DNA from: Thermodesulfobacteriota bacterium
GTDB lineage: Bacteria; Desulfobacterota; GWC2-55-46
Length of the DNA stretch: 64,000 nucleotides
Reading direction: 5' to 3'
Assembly (NCBI GenBank): GCA_030583865.1
Contig: CP129479.1
Coordinates: 2,008,819 to 2,072,818 of the forward strand
The notes under the pieces are model-generated. The model had not been told where the DNA came from. It did no database searches and saw only the letters and a program-made list of their open reading frames with translations. The position numbers were made by a program, and so were the translations under genes. How positions within the stretch are numbered: position 1 is the first letter of the stretch; each line of letters opens with the position of its first letter. Below are positions 29,942-40,675 of the stretch, one piece after another.

Positions 29942-30145
29942 TCAGGACTTTTTCATCATCCCGAGTATGCGCCGTACAGGCGCGGTTATTTTCCAGCTCC
30001 ATGAGTTCAGTATAGACTGGAGCTGGCGGTCTTTTTCCGCAAGCTCGCTTGAGAGCTTCCGGTTACGCTCCACGAGATTACGGAGCCTATCTCCCACTTC
30101 TCCGGGAGTGAACTCCCATTCGGCCTTATTTCCCGTGTTCTTCAT
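29942..30145 (-). CDS. Stand-alone SWK-tail coiled-coil mini-protein
   Basis: 67 residues. A polar N-terminal part (about 1-15) is followed by a coiled coil (RNLVERNRKLSSELAEKDR) and a C-terminal basic/aromatic segment SILNSWSWKITAPVRRILG. The coil and end closely match the C-terminal tail of the glycosyltransferase just upstream (30163-31575) and of the mini-protein at 34594-34821. No catalytic motif. Gap to the upstream gene is 17 bases; the Shine-Dalgarno is weak. The motif is known to me as a tail on some glycosyltransferases and methyltransferases of glycan clusters; its role is unknown. Confidence 0.65.
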   Translation of the reverse strand: MKNTGNKAEWEFTPGEVGDRLRNLVERNRKLSSELAEKDRQLQSILNSWSWKITAPVRRILGMMKKS

Positions 30146-30162
30146 ATGCCATATTCTTCAAG

Positions 30163-31575
30163 TCAGGGCTTCCTTGCGCTTTCAAAAACGCGGCGGAGCG
30201 GCCCTGTGACCTTCCAGCTCCAGGAATCGAGCAGCGCCTGTATCTGGCGGTCCTTCTCGGCTAGCAGGCGGTCCTTCTCCGCAAGCTCGCGCTCCATTTT
30301 GGCGAGCTTGCTTATCTGCATGAAAATCCCGTACAGCTCGTCAGGCCCTATTATGGAGGAGACATCATAGAGCAGCTTCTCATGAGTGGATGGCCGGGGA
30401 GCTTCTTTTTCGTATCGTCCGTGAACTTCCCTGAATACGCTCTCGATGCCCGAAATGTAATTCTCTTTTGTGAACACATTCAGGACGCGCTCCCTTCCGG
30501 CTGCCCCCATCCTTTCGGCAAGCGCGGGGTCGCCGAGTATCCTCATTATGGCCTCTGCCATTCTGTCCGGGGCGCGCACAGGCACGAGGAGCCCTGTCAC
30601 GCCGTCGACAACTATTTCCGGAGACGCGCCGGTATTTGTCGCGACAACGGGTTTTCCAGCTGCCATCGCCTCGATGGTCGTCCTCCCGAAGGGCTCGCCG
30701 AGCGAGGCGACGACTATTATATCCAGCTCGCTGAAGACCTCGGGCATGTCGTTACGGAAGTCGACGAATTTGACGGAGTCGCCGAGGCTGTGCCTTTCAA
30801 TAAGCTCAAGGAGGACGGGCTTGTATTCGCGGTCGGGCTGCCCGATTATAAGGAGCTTCGCCTTGCTCTCATCCTTTTTGAGGTGCGCGAACGCGTTCAG
30901 GAGGTCTTCGTGGTTTTTGTGCCTGTGTATGGTGCCGATTATCCCGACAAGGGGGCAGTCCTGGCCGATGCCGAGCTCGTTCCGGAGTTTCCCGGCCGGC
31001 TTCGCGCTTACGAACGCGCCGGTATCGACCGCGTTGTACACGACCGAGACCTTGCCCTCCGGGGCGGACGGGAACTGCGCTGCCACGCTCTTCGAGTTGG
31101 TTATGAGCCGGTCGGAGAGACATTCGACAATGCCGAATGTCGCGTCGATGCTGAAAGGGCTCCTTAGAGGGTGGTCCTTCAACACCTCCCTTATGTGCCA
31201 GACATGCGGCTTTCCGGCGAGCCTGGCCGCTATGGCCCCGGAAATCCTGGTCATGGTGTTCGTATAGACAATGTCTATCGACTCGTCGCGTATGAGATTT
31301 ACGAGGGGCCCGACGAGCTTAAGCTCGCTAACGAGCCCTGCCGCGGCCTCCAAAGGGGCAGCCGGGCGTATCCACGAGGTCGGGGCTTCAAGGACAATCT
31401 TTTTAAGGCCCAGGCCGTCGAGCTTATCGACAAGCGCGCCCTTCCCTCCCGGGAGCACGACAACGGGCTCGAAGACGCCCCTGTCCATGTGCCGGAGCAG
31501 AAAAAACATGCTCTGCTCCGCGCCGTAGAACGCGGAGGAATGGGAGATGAAGAGGATTTTAATTTTTTTGTTCAT
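30163..31575 (-). CDS. Family 4 glycosyltransferase with fused SWK-tail
   Basis: 470 residues. GT-B N-terminal domain starts KILFISHSSAFYGAEQSMFFLL; the second domain has VGIIGTIHRHKNHEDLLNAF, LLIIGQPDREYK and SLGEPFGRTTIEAMAAGKPVVATNTGASPEIV with the conserved glutamates. After the catalytic part (about residue 400) comes a coiled coil with the tandem heptad LAEKDRLLAEKDRQIQ and the ending SWSWKVTGPLRRVF, the same tail that occurs alone in two nearby mini-proteins. Overlaps the upstream gene by 17 bases. Confidence 0.88.
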   Translation of the reverse strand: MNKKIKILFISHSSAFYGAEQSMFFLLRHMDRGVFEPVVVLPGGKGALVDKLDGLGLKKIVLEAPTSWIRPAAPLEAAAGLVSELKLVGPLVNLIRDESIDIVYTNTMTRISGAIAARLAGKPHVWHIREVLKDHPLRSPFSIDATFGIVECLSDRLITNSKSVAAQFPSAPEGKVSVVYNAVDTGAFVSAKPAGKLRNELGIGQDCPLVGIIGTIHRHKNHEDLLNAFAHLKKDESKAKLLIIGQPDREYKPVLLELIERHSLGDSVKFVDFRNDMPEVFSELDIIVVASLGEPFGRTTIEAMAAGKPVVATNTGASPEIVVDGVTGLLVPVRAPDRMAEAIMRILGDPALAERMGAAGRERVLNVFTKENYISGIESVFREVHGRYEKEAPRPSTHEKLLYDVSSIIGPDELYGIFMQISKLAKMERELAEKDRLLAEKDRQIQALLDSWSWKVTGPLRRVFESARKP

Positions 31576-32653
31576 GGCAATTTACGCGGCCTAAAAGAGT
31601 CCCGAACGCCATGCGTGAAATCTCCGCCGACCTCTCCCAGCTGTAGGCTGATGCCTTTACACAGGCGGCCTCAGACGCCTTCGCAAAATCAACCGTTCTT
31701 ATCTTCCGCATGGCTTCTAAAAGGTTTTCGTTAGCCGCGTCCGGCGAATACTTTACCCCGCAGCTATCGTCCACCACCTCCGAGATTATGCCCATATCCG
31801 GTGCGACCACCGGCCTGCTGAAGGTCAACGCCAGGAAGAGATTGCCGGACGTGAATACCTGTCTGTACGGGAGCAGAACGGCATCCGAGGCGTTAAAAAA
31901 ATACTGGACTTCGTTTTTTTCTATGAACCTGAGGAAAGGGAATATCCGGGTGTTCGACCTTGCCTCGTCCGAGACGAAGTCGCCCAGGTGCTTGTCTTTC
32001 GGGTTCCCGGCGACGATTAGGACCGAGCCCTTGTCGTCCATCTTTTTGAAGGCCTGAATCGCGCTCTCAATCCCCTTATAGGGCCTTACCGGACCGAAGA
32101 GGATGTAGACGAATGCATCCGGCGGGATGCCGAGCCGTTTTCTCGCCTCATCCCTGCCGCATTTATTTTCGAAGATTGCGCTGAAATTGCCGTGGGGTAT
32201 CATATAGACATCTTTCTTTCTCAGAAAAAACCGGGACACCATTCCTTTCGCCTCAAGAAAATGCACGAATACGACATCCGAAAACCACGATATGGCAAGC
32301 CGCCCAGCGTATTCGAGCGCCATATTGTTCCGCTCATGGGGGAAGAGGTTGTGAACTGTCCACGCTATCTTATATCCCATTGATTTTGCGCGGCGGAGGT
32401 TCAGGATGAAAAGAAGAAGCTTTTTCAAAAAAACAAGGGCGTTCCGGTCAGAATACAAATACGCTGGCCAGTGGAAATGCAATATCCGCACCCTGCCGCT
32501 GTTCTCCTTGAGCCAGGCCGGGCCGAAGGATTTACCCTTCGTGTCCACTATCTTATACCCATGCTTCGCAAGCGCGTCATAGTAAAGCCTGAAATAATAG
32601 GTGTCCTCGTCGGGCATGGGGAAGGAGGCGATTTCTATTGCTCTCTCAGCCAT
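31559..32653 (-). CDS. Family 4 (GT-B) glycosyltransferase
   Basis: 364 residues. N-terminal domain with ILHFHWPAYLYSDRN and KIAWTVHNLFPHE; second domain with YILFGPVRPYKGIESAIQAFKK, SVLIVAGNPKDK and ASDAVLLPYRQVFTSGNLFLALTFSRPVVAPD, where the usual E-x7-E is replaced by TSGNLFLAL. This HFHWP/PYKG type occurs in several exopolysaccharide clusters. The gene is slightly AT-richer than its neighbours. Confidence 0.82.
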   Translation of the reverse strand: MAERAIEIASFPMPDEDTYYFRLYYDALAKHGYKIVDTKGKSFGPAWLKENSGRVRILHFHWPAYLYSDRNALVFLKKLLLFILNLRRAKSMGYKIAWTVHNLFPHERNNMALEYAGRLAISWFSDVVFVHFLEAKGMVSRFFLRKKDVYMIPHGNFSAIFENKCGRDEARKRLGIPPDAFVYILFGPVRPYKGIESAIQAFKKMDDKGSVLIVAGNPKDKHLGDFVSDEARSNTRIFPFLRFIEKNEVQYFFNASDAVLLPYRQVFTSGNLFLALTFSRPVVAPDMGIISEVVDDSCGVKYSPDAANENLLEAMRKIRTVDFAKASEAACVKASAYSWERSAEISRMAFGTLLGRVNCHEQKN

Positions 32654-32655
32654 AT

Positions 32656-33609
32656 CTACCTGACCCAGAACCGGCGGAAGTCGAGGTTGTTTCTTTTCCC
32701 TAATCTTCCCAGCATGAAATCGAGCTCGCCCGCGAACATCGCAAAAAGCCTTTCAATCCGCTGTTCGGGGTTCTCCAATTCAAGCCACCTTAAATTCCTT
32801 CTCAGGCATTTAAGATAGGCTTTCAGGCGGGCAAGGCCGCTAAGGTGGCGGTTTACCAGGAGGAGATTATTCCTGACGTAATAGTATATCCAGGAAGGCG
32901 CGCGGGCCGCCCGTTTGGCGCGAGGCTTGCCGAAGGAAAAGGAGGTAGAGCATTTATGGTAGACTCTTGCGCCGGGCACATAGAATATCCCGTATCCCGC
33001 CTTTCTTGCCCTGAGGCACCAGTCGGTCTCTTCAAAGAGCAGAAAATAATCGGGGGACATGAGCCCGACCTCGTTTATGACACCTGCCTTTATAAGAAAT
33101 GCGCAGCCCGTTATGTAATCCGTCTCGACGGCCTCGTCGAACTTACCGTCGTCGGGCCTGCCGCCGCCCCTGTGAGAGGAGCCCTTGTCGAAATCGACGA
33201 TACCGCCAGCGAACCATATCCTTCCGGGCTCAGAATAAAAAAGGATCTTCGGCCCGACTATGCCTGTCCTTGTATCTGTTTCCGCAAAATCGACCAGATG
33301 GCCCAATGCGTCCGGCTCTATCGTCGTGTCGTTATTCAGTAGAAAAACATATTCCGCGCCGTTCTTAAGCGCGTATCTTATCCCGACGTTATTTCCTTCC
33401 GCAAAGCCGAGGTTCTCCCCGGTCTCTATCAGGCGCAACCCGGGGAATTTCTCTTTTAGTGCCTCTACGGAACCGTCACTTGACCCGTTATCAACGACTA
33501 TGGTCTCGAAGTTGGGATAGCTGAGCTTGCCGACGGACTCAAGGCATTCCAGCGTGTCCTTCTTCCCGTTCCAGTTAAGGATGATAAGGTGGACCTTCGG
33601 GCGGTTCAT
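32656..33609 (-). CDS. Family 2 glycosyltransferase, WbbL-like
   Basis: 317 residues. HLIILNWNGKKDTLECLESV, VVDNGSSDGSVEAL, AEGNNVGIRYAL and the DXD-type site FLLNNDTTIEPDAL are the hallmarks of rhamnosyltransferase-like GT2 enzymes; FLLFEETDWCLRARKAGY supplies the catalytic ED region. It overlaps the upstream methyltransferase gene by four bases. Confidence 0.9.
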   Translation of the reverse strand: MNRPKVHLIILNWNGKKDTLECLESVGKLSYPNFETIVVDNGSSDGSVEALKEKFPGLRLIETGENLGFAEGNNVGIRYALKNGAEYVFLLNNDTTIEPDALGHLVDFAETDTRTGIVGPKILFYSEPGRIWFAGGIVDFDKGSSHRGGGRPDDGKFDEAVETDYITGCAFLIKAGVINEVGLMSPDYFLLFEETDWCLRARKAGYGIFYVPGARVYHKCSTSFSFGKPRAKRAARAPSWIYYYVRNNLLLVNRHLSGLARLKAYLKCLRRNLRWLELENPEQRIERLFAMFAGELDFMLGRLGKRNNLDFRRFWVR

Positions 33610-34619
33610 CCCCGTGTTTTTTTCCTCATCCAGAAGCTGCCGCCGCCCCAGAACGGCTCCGAATTGGGGAAAGCGGCCTTCATCTCCGGAAGGAACTTGA
33701 GCGCCATATAGCTGTTGCAGAAGAGCACTTCGTATTGGTTGTTAAATGCCAGAAAGCCCTGGAGCAAATACTGCTCCGTCCAGGAGCGGTACAGCTTGAA
33801 CATCCAGCTCTTCGGGTATTCCTTCGGGAAGAATATGTCATGCACATGGATAATGACCCCCGGCGCGAGCCTCGGGATTATCTCCAGGTATATCCTGTGC
33901 ACGTCGTTGCCGCACCTCAACACATGAGACGTATCGATGAATAAGATGTCCCCATCCTTCAACTCGCTGAAGATGGACAGGTCGACCTCTTCTATCTTCT
34001 GCACGCTGAGCCTTGAGAGCCCTGGAAAACCCTTTTTAAGGACTTCGGAAGGATAAGGCTCTATCGAGGTCAGTTCGGTATTCCCGTTCATCAGTGCGGC
34101 CTTTGCGGACATGAGCGTCGAGAAGCCCGAACCGCACTCGATTATCCGTTTGGGCTTGAAATGGCGCACCATGCAGTAGAGGACGAGCGCGTCCGTGCCG
34201 TCGAACATCCTGTTATTGAAGTGGAACTCGTGCGGAACGCCGGTCGGCCCCTTCGGGAACCCGTCATACTCTTCCCTGAACCGGGGGAATATGTTTAGAA
34301 GGAAATCCTTCTGGGCCTCGACTCTCATGTCCACGCCAGGCATCTCTGATTCGCGTTCCCATAATTCGTCCTTTAGAGTCCGGGTGTCGGGTATGGGCTG
34401 GTAATAGTGGTTCGGGGTGACATGGAAGCCGTTCTTTTCCCAGAAAGGGAACCACTTCATGTAATTCGTTCCCTTGACATACTTCGGCAGAAGCTTCGCT
34501 ATCAAGGAGGCGACCTCCACCTCGTTCTCTTCGTGGCCGGCGTACTTGAGGACCTCGCCCATCAGGTCCTTTTTTTCAGTTTCCGCCTTTTCCCTATTTA
34601 GTATCTTTGAAAAAACCAT
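33606..34619 (-). CDS. Class I SAM methyltransferase-like protein
   Basis: 337 residues. The core RIIECGSGFSTLMSAKAAL, TSIEPYP and DGDILFIDTSHVLRCGNDVHRIYLEIIPRLAPGVIIHVHDIFFP resemble the Methyltransf_24-type family near glycan clusters. The ATG at 34619 lies inside the end of the mini-protein gene and has AGGAG five bases upstream, so translation is probably coupled to it. Substrate unknown. Confidence 0.78.
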   Translation of the reverse strand: MVFSKILNREKAETEKKDLMGEVLKYAGHEENEVEVASLIAKLLPKYVKGTNYMKWFPFWEKNGFHVTPNHYYQPIPDTRTLKDELWERESEMPGVDMRVEAQKDFLLNIFPRFREEYDGFPKGPTGVPHEFHFNNRMFDGTDALVLYCMVRHFKPKRIIECGSGFSTLMSAKAALMNGNTELTSIEPYPSEVLKKGFPGLSRLSVQKIEEVDLSIFSELKDGDILFIDTSHVLRCGNDVHRIYLEIIPRLAPGVIIHVHDIFFPKEYPKSWMFKLYRSWTEQYLLQGFLAFNNQYEVLFCNSYMALKFLPEMKAAFPNSEPFWGGGSFWMRKKTRG

Positions 34620-34821
34620 ACAAGCTCCTCAGAGGCCCCGTTATTTTCCAGCTTATGCTGTTATAAATAGCCTGAATCTCGTTTTCCAACCGGAATACCT
34701 GCGCTTCGAGAATTTTTATGCGCTCGTTCTTCCGTGCATGATTTTTTTTGTATTCGGTCAGTTTCTCAATAATGGCGCTGCTGTCCTTCTGAAGGATCCT
34801 GCTACTCTCGCCATCGCTCAT
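34594..34821 (-). CDS. Stand-alone SWK-tail coiled-coil mini-protein
   Basis: 75 residues. Coiled coil from about residue 10 to 52 (LQKD... KILEAQVFRLENEIQ), then the motif YNSISWKITGPLRSLYGFF near the C-terminus. GGAGGG lies seven bases before the ATG, and the stop TAA of the upstream glycosyltransferase abuts the ATG (TAAATG). The upstream enzyme also ends in a coiled coil, so the two look like a glycosyltransferase and its tail split into two chains. Its 3' end overlaps the next gene by 26 bases and holds that gene's ribosome-binding site. Confidence 0.7.
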   Translation of the reverse strand: MSDGESSRILQKDSSAIIEKLTEYKKNHARKNERIKILEAQVFRLENEIQAIYNSISWKITGPLRSLYGFFKDTK

Positions 34822-36153
34822 TTAGCTGCCCTCCCCGATGCAGGTTTTCTCAAGCTCGTCGACGTATCGGCTGATATTCTGAAGCTCTCTCTCGTATGCG
34901 CGTATCTTCCCGGATTTTACATTCAGTTCCTCTTTCTTTTGCTGCAAATCGCTCTCAAATTCGGCGGCAAAGCCCCTCACCCTTTCTTCGAGCATTTGCC
35001 TGAGGCTTCCGGAAAGTCCGGATATGGGCTCCCGCCCTTTCAGCAGTCCCTTGAAAAGGCCTTCGAGCCTTTCCATCTCAGCCCCGTGGCTGTAAAGCCT
35101 TTCTATATTTGCCCTGCCCTCTTTTCCCATCCGCCTTCTCAGGTCAGGGTCGCGGATAAGCTCCTTTAGCCTCCGGGCAAGCAGGGCAGTGTCCTTCTCG
35201 GGCGCAAGGAATCCGGTCTTCCCGTCTATGACGACCTCCGGGATGCCGGTGTGCAGGCTCGATACCACCGGCAGGCCAGTTGCCGAGGCCTCCATTATCG
35301 AGACTGGCACGCCCTCCCTGTCGCCGTTTTCAGCGGTAACGGAGGGAAGGAGGAATATGTCAGCTCCTTCCATCTCTTTCAAGACGGCAGACTGCGGCAT
35401 GGGGCCGAGGAGCACGACCTTCTCTTGGAGGTTGAAGGCGTTTATCATCCCGACGATTTCGTCCTTCAGCTCCCCGTCGCCGATTATCCTTAGTTCCGCA
35501 TTGCCTATCTCAGAGGCGACATCTTTGAATGCCTCAATCGCGTGGCGGATTCCTTTTTTCTCGACAAAGCGTCCGACAAAGAGAATCCTTACCTTGTCTC
35601 CGGGATTCCTCTCGACTAAATTAAAATCCTCAAGCCTGACCCCGCACCTTACGACCTCTATCTTTTCCCTCAGGTCCTCGCCGAGCAGTTTTAAAAGATA
35701 GTCCTTGTTGAAATGCGAAATCGTAATCGCCTTTGATGCCGCTTCGAACTTCTCGCGGAGCGCGCCTGCATCCGGGTTTACGAATATGTCATAGGCATGG
35801 GCCGTGAAAACATACGGGATGCCGAACGACCTCGCAATTTTCAGGGCTACTTCCGTCTGTCTCGCCGCAAAGTGGGCGTGGATGATATCGGTGAAAAAAA
35901 GGGCGGAGACGAGCCTCTCGTTAAGCTCGAAACCGATGGTTGACTGGTTTCTCGTAAGGTAATGGGTCTTCCGGAGAAGGCCGTATCGCTCAACGCTCTC
36001 GTGGACGACCTCTTCCTTCGGCCTGTTCGCTGATATTATCTCGACGTCGTGACCCATGTCAATGAGGTCGGTTATCTGGTTCAGCACGAACGTCTCTGAT
36101 AGCTTGGGGAAAATGCCGACTATGTATGTTATCTTCACTCTATTACCCTGCAA
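34822..36153 (-). CDS. Family 4 glycosyltransferase, WcaL-like, with C-terminal coiled coil
   Basis: 443 residues. KITYIVGIFPKLSETFVLNQI and DIIHAHFAARQTEVAL are typical of WcaL/AmsK-type enzymes; the second domain shows RILFVGRFVEKKGIRHAIEAF, LRIIGDGELKDEI and LPSVTAENGDREGVPVSIMEASATGLPVVSS with the conserved EGVP...E. From about residue 385 the chain is a charged coiled coil. The following mini-protein starts at its stop codon. Upstream lies a repeat-filled gap rather than another gene, so a separate promoter may exist there. Confidence 0.88.
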   Translation of the reverse strand: MQGNRVKITYIVGIFPKLSETFVLNQITDLIDMGHDVEIISANRPKEEVVHESVERYGLLRKTHYLTRNQSTIGFELNERLVSALFFTDIIHAHFAARQTEVALKIARSFGIPYVFTAHAYDIFVNPDAGALREKFEAASKAITISHFNKDYLLKLLGEDLREKIEVVRCGVRLEDFNLVERNPGDKVRILFVGRFVEKKGIRHAIEAFKDVASEIGNAELRIIGDGELKDEIVGMINAFNLQEKVVLLGPMPQSAVLKEMEGADIFLLPSVTAENGDREGVPVSIMEASATGLPVVSSLHTGIPEVVIDGKTGFLAPEKDTALLARRLKELIRDPDLRRRMGKEGRANIERLYSHGAEMERLEGLFKGLLKGREPISGLSGSLRQMLEERVRGFAAEFESDLQQKKEELNVKSGKIRAYERELQNISRYVDELEKTCIGEGS

Positions 36154-38562: not shown

Positions 38563-39852
38563 TTATATATTTGTCATATCGATCCGGCTTAGTGAAATCG
38601 AACTATTGCAATCAATCAGTCCGTGAGATCCTGTCGTACCTATCACCTTGAAAAATATCACGTCAAGCCTTCTGTCGTGGAATACCCTTTCGCTCTTGTC
38701 GAATTCCGCAACCGAGGAAGTTATCGCGTACTGGCCGGGGTTGAGGTTCATTTTCTGGTCGAAGCGTATCTCCCTGACATCTCCCTTCTTTACAGCCCCT
38801 ATCGGGGTCTTCGCAGATTCGGTGCTCGCGCCTGAAAGCTCCAGGCCGTTCAGCGTCTTTATCATGAAGCCCAGGACAGGCTCTTCCATGTCCTTTTTAA
38901 AGAGCACCCTGGCTCTGACTGTATACGGCTCTCCGGCCTCGACGAATGTCGTCGGCTCGCCATTCCCGTTCAGAAGCTCGATTTCCTTCAATTCCGCGCC
39001 GCCCGCGCCGAAGCGAAATTCGCCGGTGCCCTCGACCCTCTCGTCCTCCCCGTCCTCCGTCCAGTTCGTTGCCGCAGCATCTTTCCCGCCGCTCATCTTC
39101 CTGGCGTACTCGGCCTCCCTCTCAGCCAGCGCCTTGCTGTATGCGTTCACCACCTCTTTGGGGCTTCCCATGCACACCACCCTGCCCCTGTCAAGGAACA
39201 TGGCCTGCGTGCAGATGCTCGTGACGGTGCCGACGTTGTGCGAGACGAACAATATCGTCTTCCCGCTCTTCTGGAACTCCTCAAGCCTCCGGTAGCACCG
39301 CCTTTGGAACATCGCGTCGCCCACGGCAAGCGCCTCGTCCACTATGAGTATCTCCGGGTCTATGTTTATGGCGCAGGCGAAGGCGAGCCGCACGTACATG
39401 CCGCTCGAATACTTCTTAACGGGCTGGTCTATGAAGTGGCCTATGTCGGCAAAGGCCGTTATGGAGTCGAACTTCTCCTCCATCTCCTCCCTCGATATTC
39501 CCCGCATCGCGCCCTGCAGGAAGACGTTCTCCCTGCCGGTGAATTCCTTGTTAAAACCAGCGCCGAGCTCAAGAAGGGCCGATATCCTGCCGCTTACCTC
39601 AACGCTCCCCGTAGTGGGGCTGAGTATCCCGGCGATTATCTGCAAAAGCGTGCTTTTCCCGGAGCCGTTCTGCCCGACTATGCCGAAGGTCGTGCCCTTC
39701 GGCACCTCAAGGCTTACGTCCCGGAGCGCCCAGAAGTCCTTGTGGTATTTCTTGCCGAAGGGATGGAGGAGCTCCTTCATCCTGTCGGCAGGGGCGGGGT
39801 ACATACGGTAGCTCTTGCTTACGTTATTTATGCGTATGGCGGTCCCGGACAT
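38563..39852 (-). CDS. wzt: Polysaccharide ABC exporter ATPase Wzt with C-terminal carbohydrate-binding domain
   Basis: 429 residues. Walker A GQNGSGKST (60-68), signature YSSGM, Walker B EILIVDEALAVGD and a late H-loop typify the Wzt/TagH group. From about residue 270 there is an extra beta-sandwich domain (EFRFGAGGAELKEIELLNGNGE...) like the Wzt C-terminal domain, which recognises the modified end of the finished chain. That fits a cluster rich in methyl- and sulfotransferases that could cap the chain. Follows the permease gene by four bases. Confidence 0.93.
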   Translation of the reverse strand: MSGTAIRINNVSKSYRMYPAPADRMKELLHPFGKKYHKDFWALRDVSLEVPKGTTFGIVGQNGSGKSTLLQIIAGILSPTTGSVEVSGRISALLELGAGFNKEFTGRENVFLQGAMRGISREEMEEKFDSITAFADIGHFIDQPVKKYSSGMYVRLAFACAINIDPEILIVDEALAVGDAMFQRRCYRRLEEFQKSGKTILFVSHNVGTVTSICTQAMFLDRGRVVCMGSPKEVVNAYSKALAEREAEYARKMSGGKDAAATNWTEDGEDERVEGTGEFRFGAGGAELKEIELLNGNGEPTTFVEAGEPYTVRARVLFKKDMEEPVLGFMIKTLNGLELSGASTESAKTPIGAVKKGDVREIRFDQKMNLNPGQYAITSSVAEFDKSERVFHDRRLDVIFFKVIGTTGSHGLIDCNSSISLSRIDMTNI

Positions 39853-39856
39853 AGGC

Positions 39857-40675
39857 CTACAGGACCTCCGCGAAGCCGGGCTTCAGGCGCCTGAAAAAGA
39901 GGCCGCCGATGCCGAAGGTTATTAACGAAACGAACGCCAAATAGGCGATGACCTGCGGGTTCGGAAGCCTGCCGGAGAGGAGCGATTCCCTGAACCCCTC
40001 TACCACCAGGAAAAGCGGGTTGAACTTGAGGAATGCCATCATGCCCGGCGGCACTATGGACGGCGGATAGAATATCGGAGTGAGGAAGAACCACGCCAGC
40101 ATGAGCATGTCGATTACCTGCTTCAAATCCCTGAGATACACGCTTACGCTCGAAAGTATCCAGCCGAGCCCTATCGCGAAAAGGGAGATGAAGAAGAGAT
40201 AGGGGATTATCAAAGGCGCATACAGCGGGACATGCCACTCTATGAGCACGAGCGCGGCGAACAAAAGGCCCAGCCCGATGAGGTGGTTGATAAAGCTGCT
40301 CATTATCGAGATTATGGGCAGAAGCTCCGACGGGAAGCCCACGGCCTTCTTGACGAGGTTGCTGTTCGAGTTTATGGAGCCCATTGCCGATGTGACGCCC
40401 TGCTGGAAGAACTGCCAGGGGAGTATGCCGGTGAGGAGGAAAAGGATATAGCTGTCGGTGCCGTATGACTCATCGGGCCTGGACTTGAAGATGACGCCGA
40501 AGACCAGGCCGTATACCAGGACCTGCACTAGCGGGTGGACGACCGCCCAGGTGAGGCCGAAGACGCTCCCCACGTATTTGGCCTTGAGGTCGCGGAGGGC
40601 CATAGCCCAGAGCATCTGCCTGCTTTTGAAGAGCTTCCGCACGAAATCAACGGAGATAAGTACGCTTTGCTTCAT
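39857..40675 (-). CDS. wzm: Polysaccharide ABC exporter permease Wzm
   Basis: 272 residues with about six membrane helices and the ABC-2 features LKAKYVGSVFGLTWAVVHPLVQVLVYGLVFGVIF at the N-terminus and FFLTPIFYPPSIVP toward the end. With Wzt it would carry a complete lipid-linked polysaccharide across the inner membrane. First gene of the long minus-strand cluster; the promoter should lie in the repeat-rich gap beyond 40675. Confidence 0.92.
   Translation of the reverse strand: MKQSVLISVDFVRKLFKSRQMLWAMALRDLKAKYVGSVFGLTWAVVHPLVQVLVYGLVFGVIFKSRPDESYGTDSYILFLLTGILPWQFFQQGVTSAMGSINSNSNLVKKAVGFPSELLPIISIMSSFINHLIGLGLLFAALVLIEWHVPLYAPLIIPYLFFISLFAIGLGWILSSVSVYLRDLKQVIDMLMLAWFFLTPIFYPPSIVPPGMMAFLKFNPLFLVVEGFRESLLSGRLPNPQVIAYLAFVSLITFGIGGLFFRRLKPGFAEVL

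Follow-up and report, generated by a model that had tools for sequence, protein, structure and literature searches.

Two short genes of a glycan cluster in a Thermodesulfobacteriota bacterium, mini1 and mini2, encode free copies of a C-terminal tail that is otherwise found fused to glycosyltransferases (GTs), methyltransferases, and sulfotransferases. Both free copies are real genes, conserved and subject to purifying selection, and not debris. A trans-acting targeting or scaffold module seems to be the best explanation for both, and we assign this reading a probability of about 0.6. The window, a 64,000-nucleotide stretch of a genome that forms a single contig of 2.75 Mb, carries the cluster on its minus strand. 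A Wzm-like permease and Wzt come first, followed by a sulfotransferase, a CysC-like kinase, methyltransferases, and GT4 and GT2 enzymes (Table 1). With a Wzm-like gene and a Wzt that possesses a carbohydrate-binding domain (Wzt_C, E 2e-35), this is an ABC-transporter glycan cluster. At its 3'-end, mini2 shares 26 nt (34594-34619) in a different frame with the beginning of the Methyltransf_24 gene downstream, and this overlap is kept in the sister species.

Table 1. Features of the glycan cluster, with positions in the window
Feature	Position	Strand	Description
mini1	29942..30145	-	67 aa, stand-alone protein of coil and SWSWKITAPVR tail
GT4a	30163..31575	-	470 aa, GT4 with C-terminal fused tail; PF00534 E 1e-39; tail residues SWSWKVTGPLR
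GT4a fused coil and tail	30166..30306	-
mini2	34594..34821	-	75 aa, stand-alone protein of helix and SISWKITGPLR tail
Shine-Dalgarno-like GGGGAGGG	34829..34836	-	upstream of mini2, within the final GT4c codons; identical in 3/3 species
GT4c	34822..36153	-	443 aa, GT4 with coil end, without SWK tail; PF00534 E 2e-39
GT4c coil end (...RAYERELQNISRYVDELEKTCIGEGS)	34825..35028	-	presumed partner sequence of mini2
Wzt	38563..39852	-	ABC-transporter ATPase with Wzt_C carbohydrate-binding domain; PF14524 E 2e-35, PF00005
Wzm-like ABC permease (predicted)	39857..40675	-	polytopic sequence, directly before Wzt; order kept in G004

Both minis and the end of GT4a share a helix followed by S-[WI]-S-W-K-[IV]-T-[AG]-P-[LV]-R. 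A six-frame scan of the 64-kb window located this motif in a coding context in these three copies only, and a looser pattern added one short, unrelated match. In blastp comparisons mini1 matched the GT4a tail with 51% identity over 45 aa (E 2e-10) and mini2 with E 3e-6, while GT4a and mini2 matched with E 1e-3, all E values referring to an assumed database of 1e6 residues. This similarity is far above chance. The tails of the window satisfy the consensus S-x-S-W-[KR]-[ILVM]-T-x-P-[LVMF]-R. The usual fusion to an enzyme is absent for mini1 and mini2, which are separate ORFs with their own starts and lack a catalytic domain. An earlier note on this DNA had described the sizes and positions of these ORFs, the shared tail, and a layout in which GT4a carries the tail in fused form, mini1 lies just behind GT4a, and mini2 begins at the TAAATG stop of the coil-ended GT4c; scan and blastp confirmed this description. 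Neither Pfam nor NCBIfam contained a family for the minis or the tail, coiled-coil noise apart, and weak PHROGs and Pfam matches of the minis were discounted as such noise. Among solved structures, a profile of coil plus tail matched nothing but generic coiled coils, and a profile of the tail alone gave no relevant match.

The same note had mentioned similar tails on glycosyltransferases and methyltransferases and proposed a profile search for fused and free copies. Such tails also occur on sulfotransferases, and in archaea as well as bacteria. Among 63 genomes of the class the search recovered 28 tail copies, of which 6 were free. All free ones belong to one family, with two each in the window genome (G000) and its sister species (G005) and one each in G004 and G009. 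The latter, a member of another genus, encodes a 117-aa free form that is flanked by a GT2 protein rich in coil and by a GT4, and no fused copy above threshold was found in its genome. Free and fused forms, which the note allowed might never co-occur, are found together in three of the four mini-bearing genomes of the family. In larger samples the tail was present in at least 38 of 297 genomes of the own phylum, with one further true free form, and in at least 47 of 398 genomes of Pseudomonadota, 33 of 367 of Alphaproteobacteria, and 12 of 378 of Bacillota, with no free form in these three samples (in the Alphaproteobacteria after inspection). These counts are lower bounds because about 16-22 first-look candidates were scored per genome. 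The free state was judged by open-frame length first, and short frames were then read individually. Fused copies occurred in Geobacter, Nitrospirae, Proteobacteria, Bacilli, Clostridia, Microbacteriaceae, and Methanobrevibacter. The fused form has a wide distribution among bacteria and archaea, and free tails are rare; hence, the free form is no general requirement.

Further stand-alone cases were found outside this family. Two Paracoccus plasmids carry free-tail genes (147 and 109 codons) that are annotated as hypothetical, each located directly upstream of a divergent GT-like gene with weak Pfam support for a GT. Neither a second tail copy on these plasmids nor a fused homologue of the pair of mini and GT was found. 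A plasmid of Paracoccus fistulariae encodes a 344-aa hypothetical protein with an SWK tail (L146 4748-5782), on the opposite strand beside a GT whose relatives adjoin the free tails of Paracoccus. In G129, which belongs to another family, the order is Wzm, Wzt, a 195-aa coil-SWRITYPLR protein, and a tandem GT4 of 1060 aa, named from sequence appearance. The gene of the 195-aa protein (L155 2509-3096 / L157 9509-10096) overlaps the end of Wzt by 10 nt. Past the motif this protein has a helical C-terminal extension of ~115 aa ending in IYxxLKxAI, and many fused proteins show a similar extension of 110-124 aa, unnamed in Pfam. Two apparent free copies were rejected. One was truncated by a contig end (G916:C197), and the other was the frameshifted end of an FkbM-like methyltransferase (G340:C84, L156 2287-3584), in which a frameshift within the coil repeats left coil and tail as a false stand-alone ORF. 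On a gut contig (MT835577.1, L133 2317-3138) a gene upstream of a GT4 encodes a protein of 273 aa that has an N-terminal domain without annotation, a coil, and SSSWRITSPFRR. This contig, deposited as phage, resembles bacterial glycan genes and may be mislabelled. A scan of viral contigs with GT4a gave distant GT matches only.

The relation between the free and the fused state becomes apparent in Deltaproteobacteria bacterium UBA5799 (G004). In this genome mini2 follows a Sulfotransfer_3 protein instead of GT4c. The end of this sulfotransferase, AYEAEFRRISRYVDEIEKTCIGEGGG, matches the GT4c end with 60% identity over 40 aa (E 9e-9). A search of 59 relatives with a profile of the GT4c coil end recovered it in just the three mini2-bearing genomes, where it always immediately precedes mini2, and a fourth match was marginal (E 0.009). 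The G004 protein most closely related to GT4c (53% over 358 aa) combines GT4 and GT2 and carries a fused tail itself. Furthermore, a GT2 of G004 has a fused tail to which mini1 is homologous over 60 of its 67 residues (53%, E 3e-18). Thus, the module occurs both in cis and in trans in related clusters, as the comparison of G004 with the window demonstrates. The simplest history suggested by these sequences would be detachment of a fused tail to give the free form, since the fused form is the widespread state, and mini1 may have arisen in this way because it matches the fused tail of the G004 GT2. Four fused tails lie in one 16-kb stretch of G004 (L044 5000-14900), on a GT4-GT2 protein, a methyltransferase-like and a sulfotransferase-like protein, both named from sequence appearance, and a GT2. 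Four different tailed enzymes in one stretch suggest that the tail serves as a common address throughout the cluster.

We propose that the minis are free, trans-acting copies of a short targeting module in which a hinge at N-S joins a coiled-coil helix to a basic hydrophobic C-terminal helix (S-x-S-W-K-[IV]-T-x-P-L-R-x...) and which is normally fused to GTs, methyltransferases, or sulfotransferases. The coil part would pair with the coils of cluster enzymes. Here mini2 would pair with the coil end of GT4c immediately upstream, and mini1 probably with a coil in GT4a or in another protein that has the tail. The end helix, rich in W, K, and R, would lie in the membrane surface or bind a shared membrane partner. 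Coil pairing together with membrane attachment of the end helix would keep a tail-less enzyme beside the Wzm-Wzt exporter. This proposal is supported by the pair of coil end and mini2, which is kept in three species while the enzyme changes from a GT4 to a sulfotransferase. Support also comes from the independent stand-alone cases, which adjoin transferases (117 aa in G009, the two Paracoccus plasmids, 195 aa in G129). Coupled translation, coil pairing, membrane binding, and a scaffold role are properties that we infer for the minis. The evidence for enzyme docking, membrane binding, and complex assembly is indirect and consists of the predicted helix-hinge-helix, composition, position, and likeness to WbdD. 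One complex of all cluster enzymes, as put forward in the earlier note, goes beyond the data. Tentatively, the coil-and-membrane-helix module may even represent a plug-in targeting code, exchangeable between cis and trans, that addresses unrelated enzymes to one export-linked complex, with matched pairs of coil end and mini moving between enzymes as docking cassettes.

Free beside fused copies within the same cluster would also suit a regulatory function. As competitors or caps for the coils of tailed enzymes, free coils could set the number of enzymes per complex and in this way the chain length. For WbdD systems, chain length depends on the stoichiometry of the complex and on how long the coil is (PMC11231755), which speaks for such a function. 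We regard regulation as rather unlikely, because it leaves unexplained why GT4c lacks a tail exactly where mini2 comes next, and why the Paracoccus plasmids have no detected second tail copy.

Structure prediction and helix composition bear on the part of the targeting module that would contact the membrane. AlphaFold2 with 41 tails modelled mini2 as a helix from 3 to 54, a break at S55, and a second helix from 56 to 74, with a mean pLDDT of 91. The spacing of heptad core positions compared with shuffled sequences (p 0.0005 for mini1 and 0.0015 for mini2) supports a coil before the motif, while a cruder Fourier test of coil periodicity was not significant for mini2. In 66 tails the 18 residues from the motif onward have a mean moment of 0.36 and a median charge of +4, compared to 0.23 and about 0 in 18-mers from enzyme bodies. 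A lipid-binding discriminant with scale and cut-off of the HeliQuest type was exceeded by 68% of the 66 tails and by 5% of the enzyme-body 18-mers. In within-tail shuffles the amphipathic pattern was weakly significant (p<0.05 in 12% of tails), so that composition carries most of the membrane argument. A membrane-surface helix is thus a plausible form of the tail as modelled.

Alternatively, the tail may bind neither membrane nor coils but a specific protein partner, e.g. Wzm/Wzt or a lipid-carrier enzyme. Five or six tail residues are invariant or nearly so over many phyla, which is more than a generic amphipathic helix needs, and the free form of G129 lies directly behind Wzt. On the other hand, fused tails occur on very different enzymes, also in Bacillota and archaea, and no single co-occurring partner was identified. 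On balance, a specific partner is improbable as the explanation of the tail.

Under the trans-acting targeting module, mini2 would be made in a roughly fixed ratio to the enzyme upstream, owing to coupled translation. The start of mini2 abuts the stop of GT4c in the window (GGGGAGGGCAGCTAAATG). The junction reads TAAATG in the window, TAATG in G005, and GATGA in G004, and the Shine-Dalgarno-like sequence is identical in all three species despite these differences. The nucleotide identity of G000 to G004 reaches its peak, 0.83-0.87, near the junction, compared to roughly 0.5-0.8 in the body of mini2. This peak fits constraint on the coil end and start signal as well as a past exchange of cassettes. 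In the window the TAA is in frame with the ATG of mini2, so that readthrough would yield one chain, and the Shine-Dalgarno-like sequence stands just ahead of the junction; both would also accommodate recoding by stop readthrough or frameshift, with mini2 as a regulated extension of GT4c. In-frame readthrough is confined to the window. The differing frames in G005 and G004 do not permit a single recoding event for all three species, and an overlap of start and stop combined with a Shine-Dalgarno sequence is a normal sign of coupled translation. The junction pattern therefore argues for coupled translation of two proteins, and recoding is very unlikely. An AlphaFold2 model of GT4c read through into mini2 had low coil confidence and no usable packing, and as a single chain it bears on a covalent hairpin only.

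Conservation indicates that the minis are real genes. Among five other genomes of the genus, the sister species G005 retains mini1, mini2, and the fused copy in unchanged order. The G005 orthologue of mini1 shares 86.6% aa identity. Compared with G005, dN/dS (Nei-Gojobori) is 0.19 for mini1 and 0.11 for mini2, based on small samples of ~9 and ~7 nonsynonymous changes in intact frames, and seven neighbouring enzymes gave 0.08-0.14. In G004 mini2 is intact as well, with ~59% identity and a dN/dS of 0.13, the synonymous sites being near saturation. Codon-position GC of the minis is like that of neighbouring genes. The idea that the minis are decayed remnants of fused enzymes that have been lost, without a function of their own, raised in the earlier note and suggested by the possible detachment origin of mini1, is largely refuted by these intact, neighbour-like genes and the conserved Shine-Dalgarno-like sequence, and we consider it most improbable.

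How glycan-cluster enzymes come together at the membrane has been worked out in detail for few systems, and there the scaffold is part of the chain-terminating enzyme. A free tail gene would make the scaffold role separable from catalysis, since removing, relocating, or exchanging such a gene leaves the enzymes intact. Searches of the open-access literature gave no account of the tail sequence or of coil proteins that stand alone in glycan clusters. In its fused state the tail is common but has no name in the libraries searched, and the free form is rare and apparently undescribed in the open-access literature. Since the tail occurs in many phyla without a Pfam or NCBIfam model or a solved structure, a family model would allow many glycan enzymes to be annotated better and bring to light small genes that have been missed.

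The fused tails on GTs, methyltransferases, and sulfotransferases have the same invariant residues and helix as the minis and likewise end about 9 residues past the R. In contrast to these, the minis and other free forms are polypeptides of 67-195 aa and not part of an enzyme. In ABC-transporter (Wzm/Wzt_C) glycan clusters, coiled-coil proteins with a membrane helix recruit the polymerase (PMC11231755; PMC6286764). Scaffolds and terminators of the WbdD type (E. coli O9a, K. pneumoniae O3; also WbbB, KpO4, and KpO7) belong to the same type of cluster as the minis. Like the minis they have a coil, which in the WbdD type is followed by a C-terminal membrane-associated region that recruits the polymerase (PMC11231755; PMC6286764); the predicted basic and hydrophobic second helix of the minis may correspond to this region. 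Unlike WbdD, the minis have no enzyme domain, and thus no N-terminal chain terminator, and their coil is much shorter. An Azospirillum protein (WP_247875808.1, MT-coil-SWK-GT2-GT2), encoded behind genes for an ABC-transporter permease and ATPase, has the tail at the close of its coil and before its GT2 modules. This site of the SWK tail resembles that of the membrane-associated region in WbdD, although everything is in one chain and a further domain lies between the tail and the GT2 modules. In view of the WbdD scaffold and the Azospirillum arrangement, the best reading by analogy is that the minis represent a trans-acting version of the WbdD coil-plus-membrane-helix scaffold.
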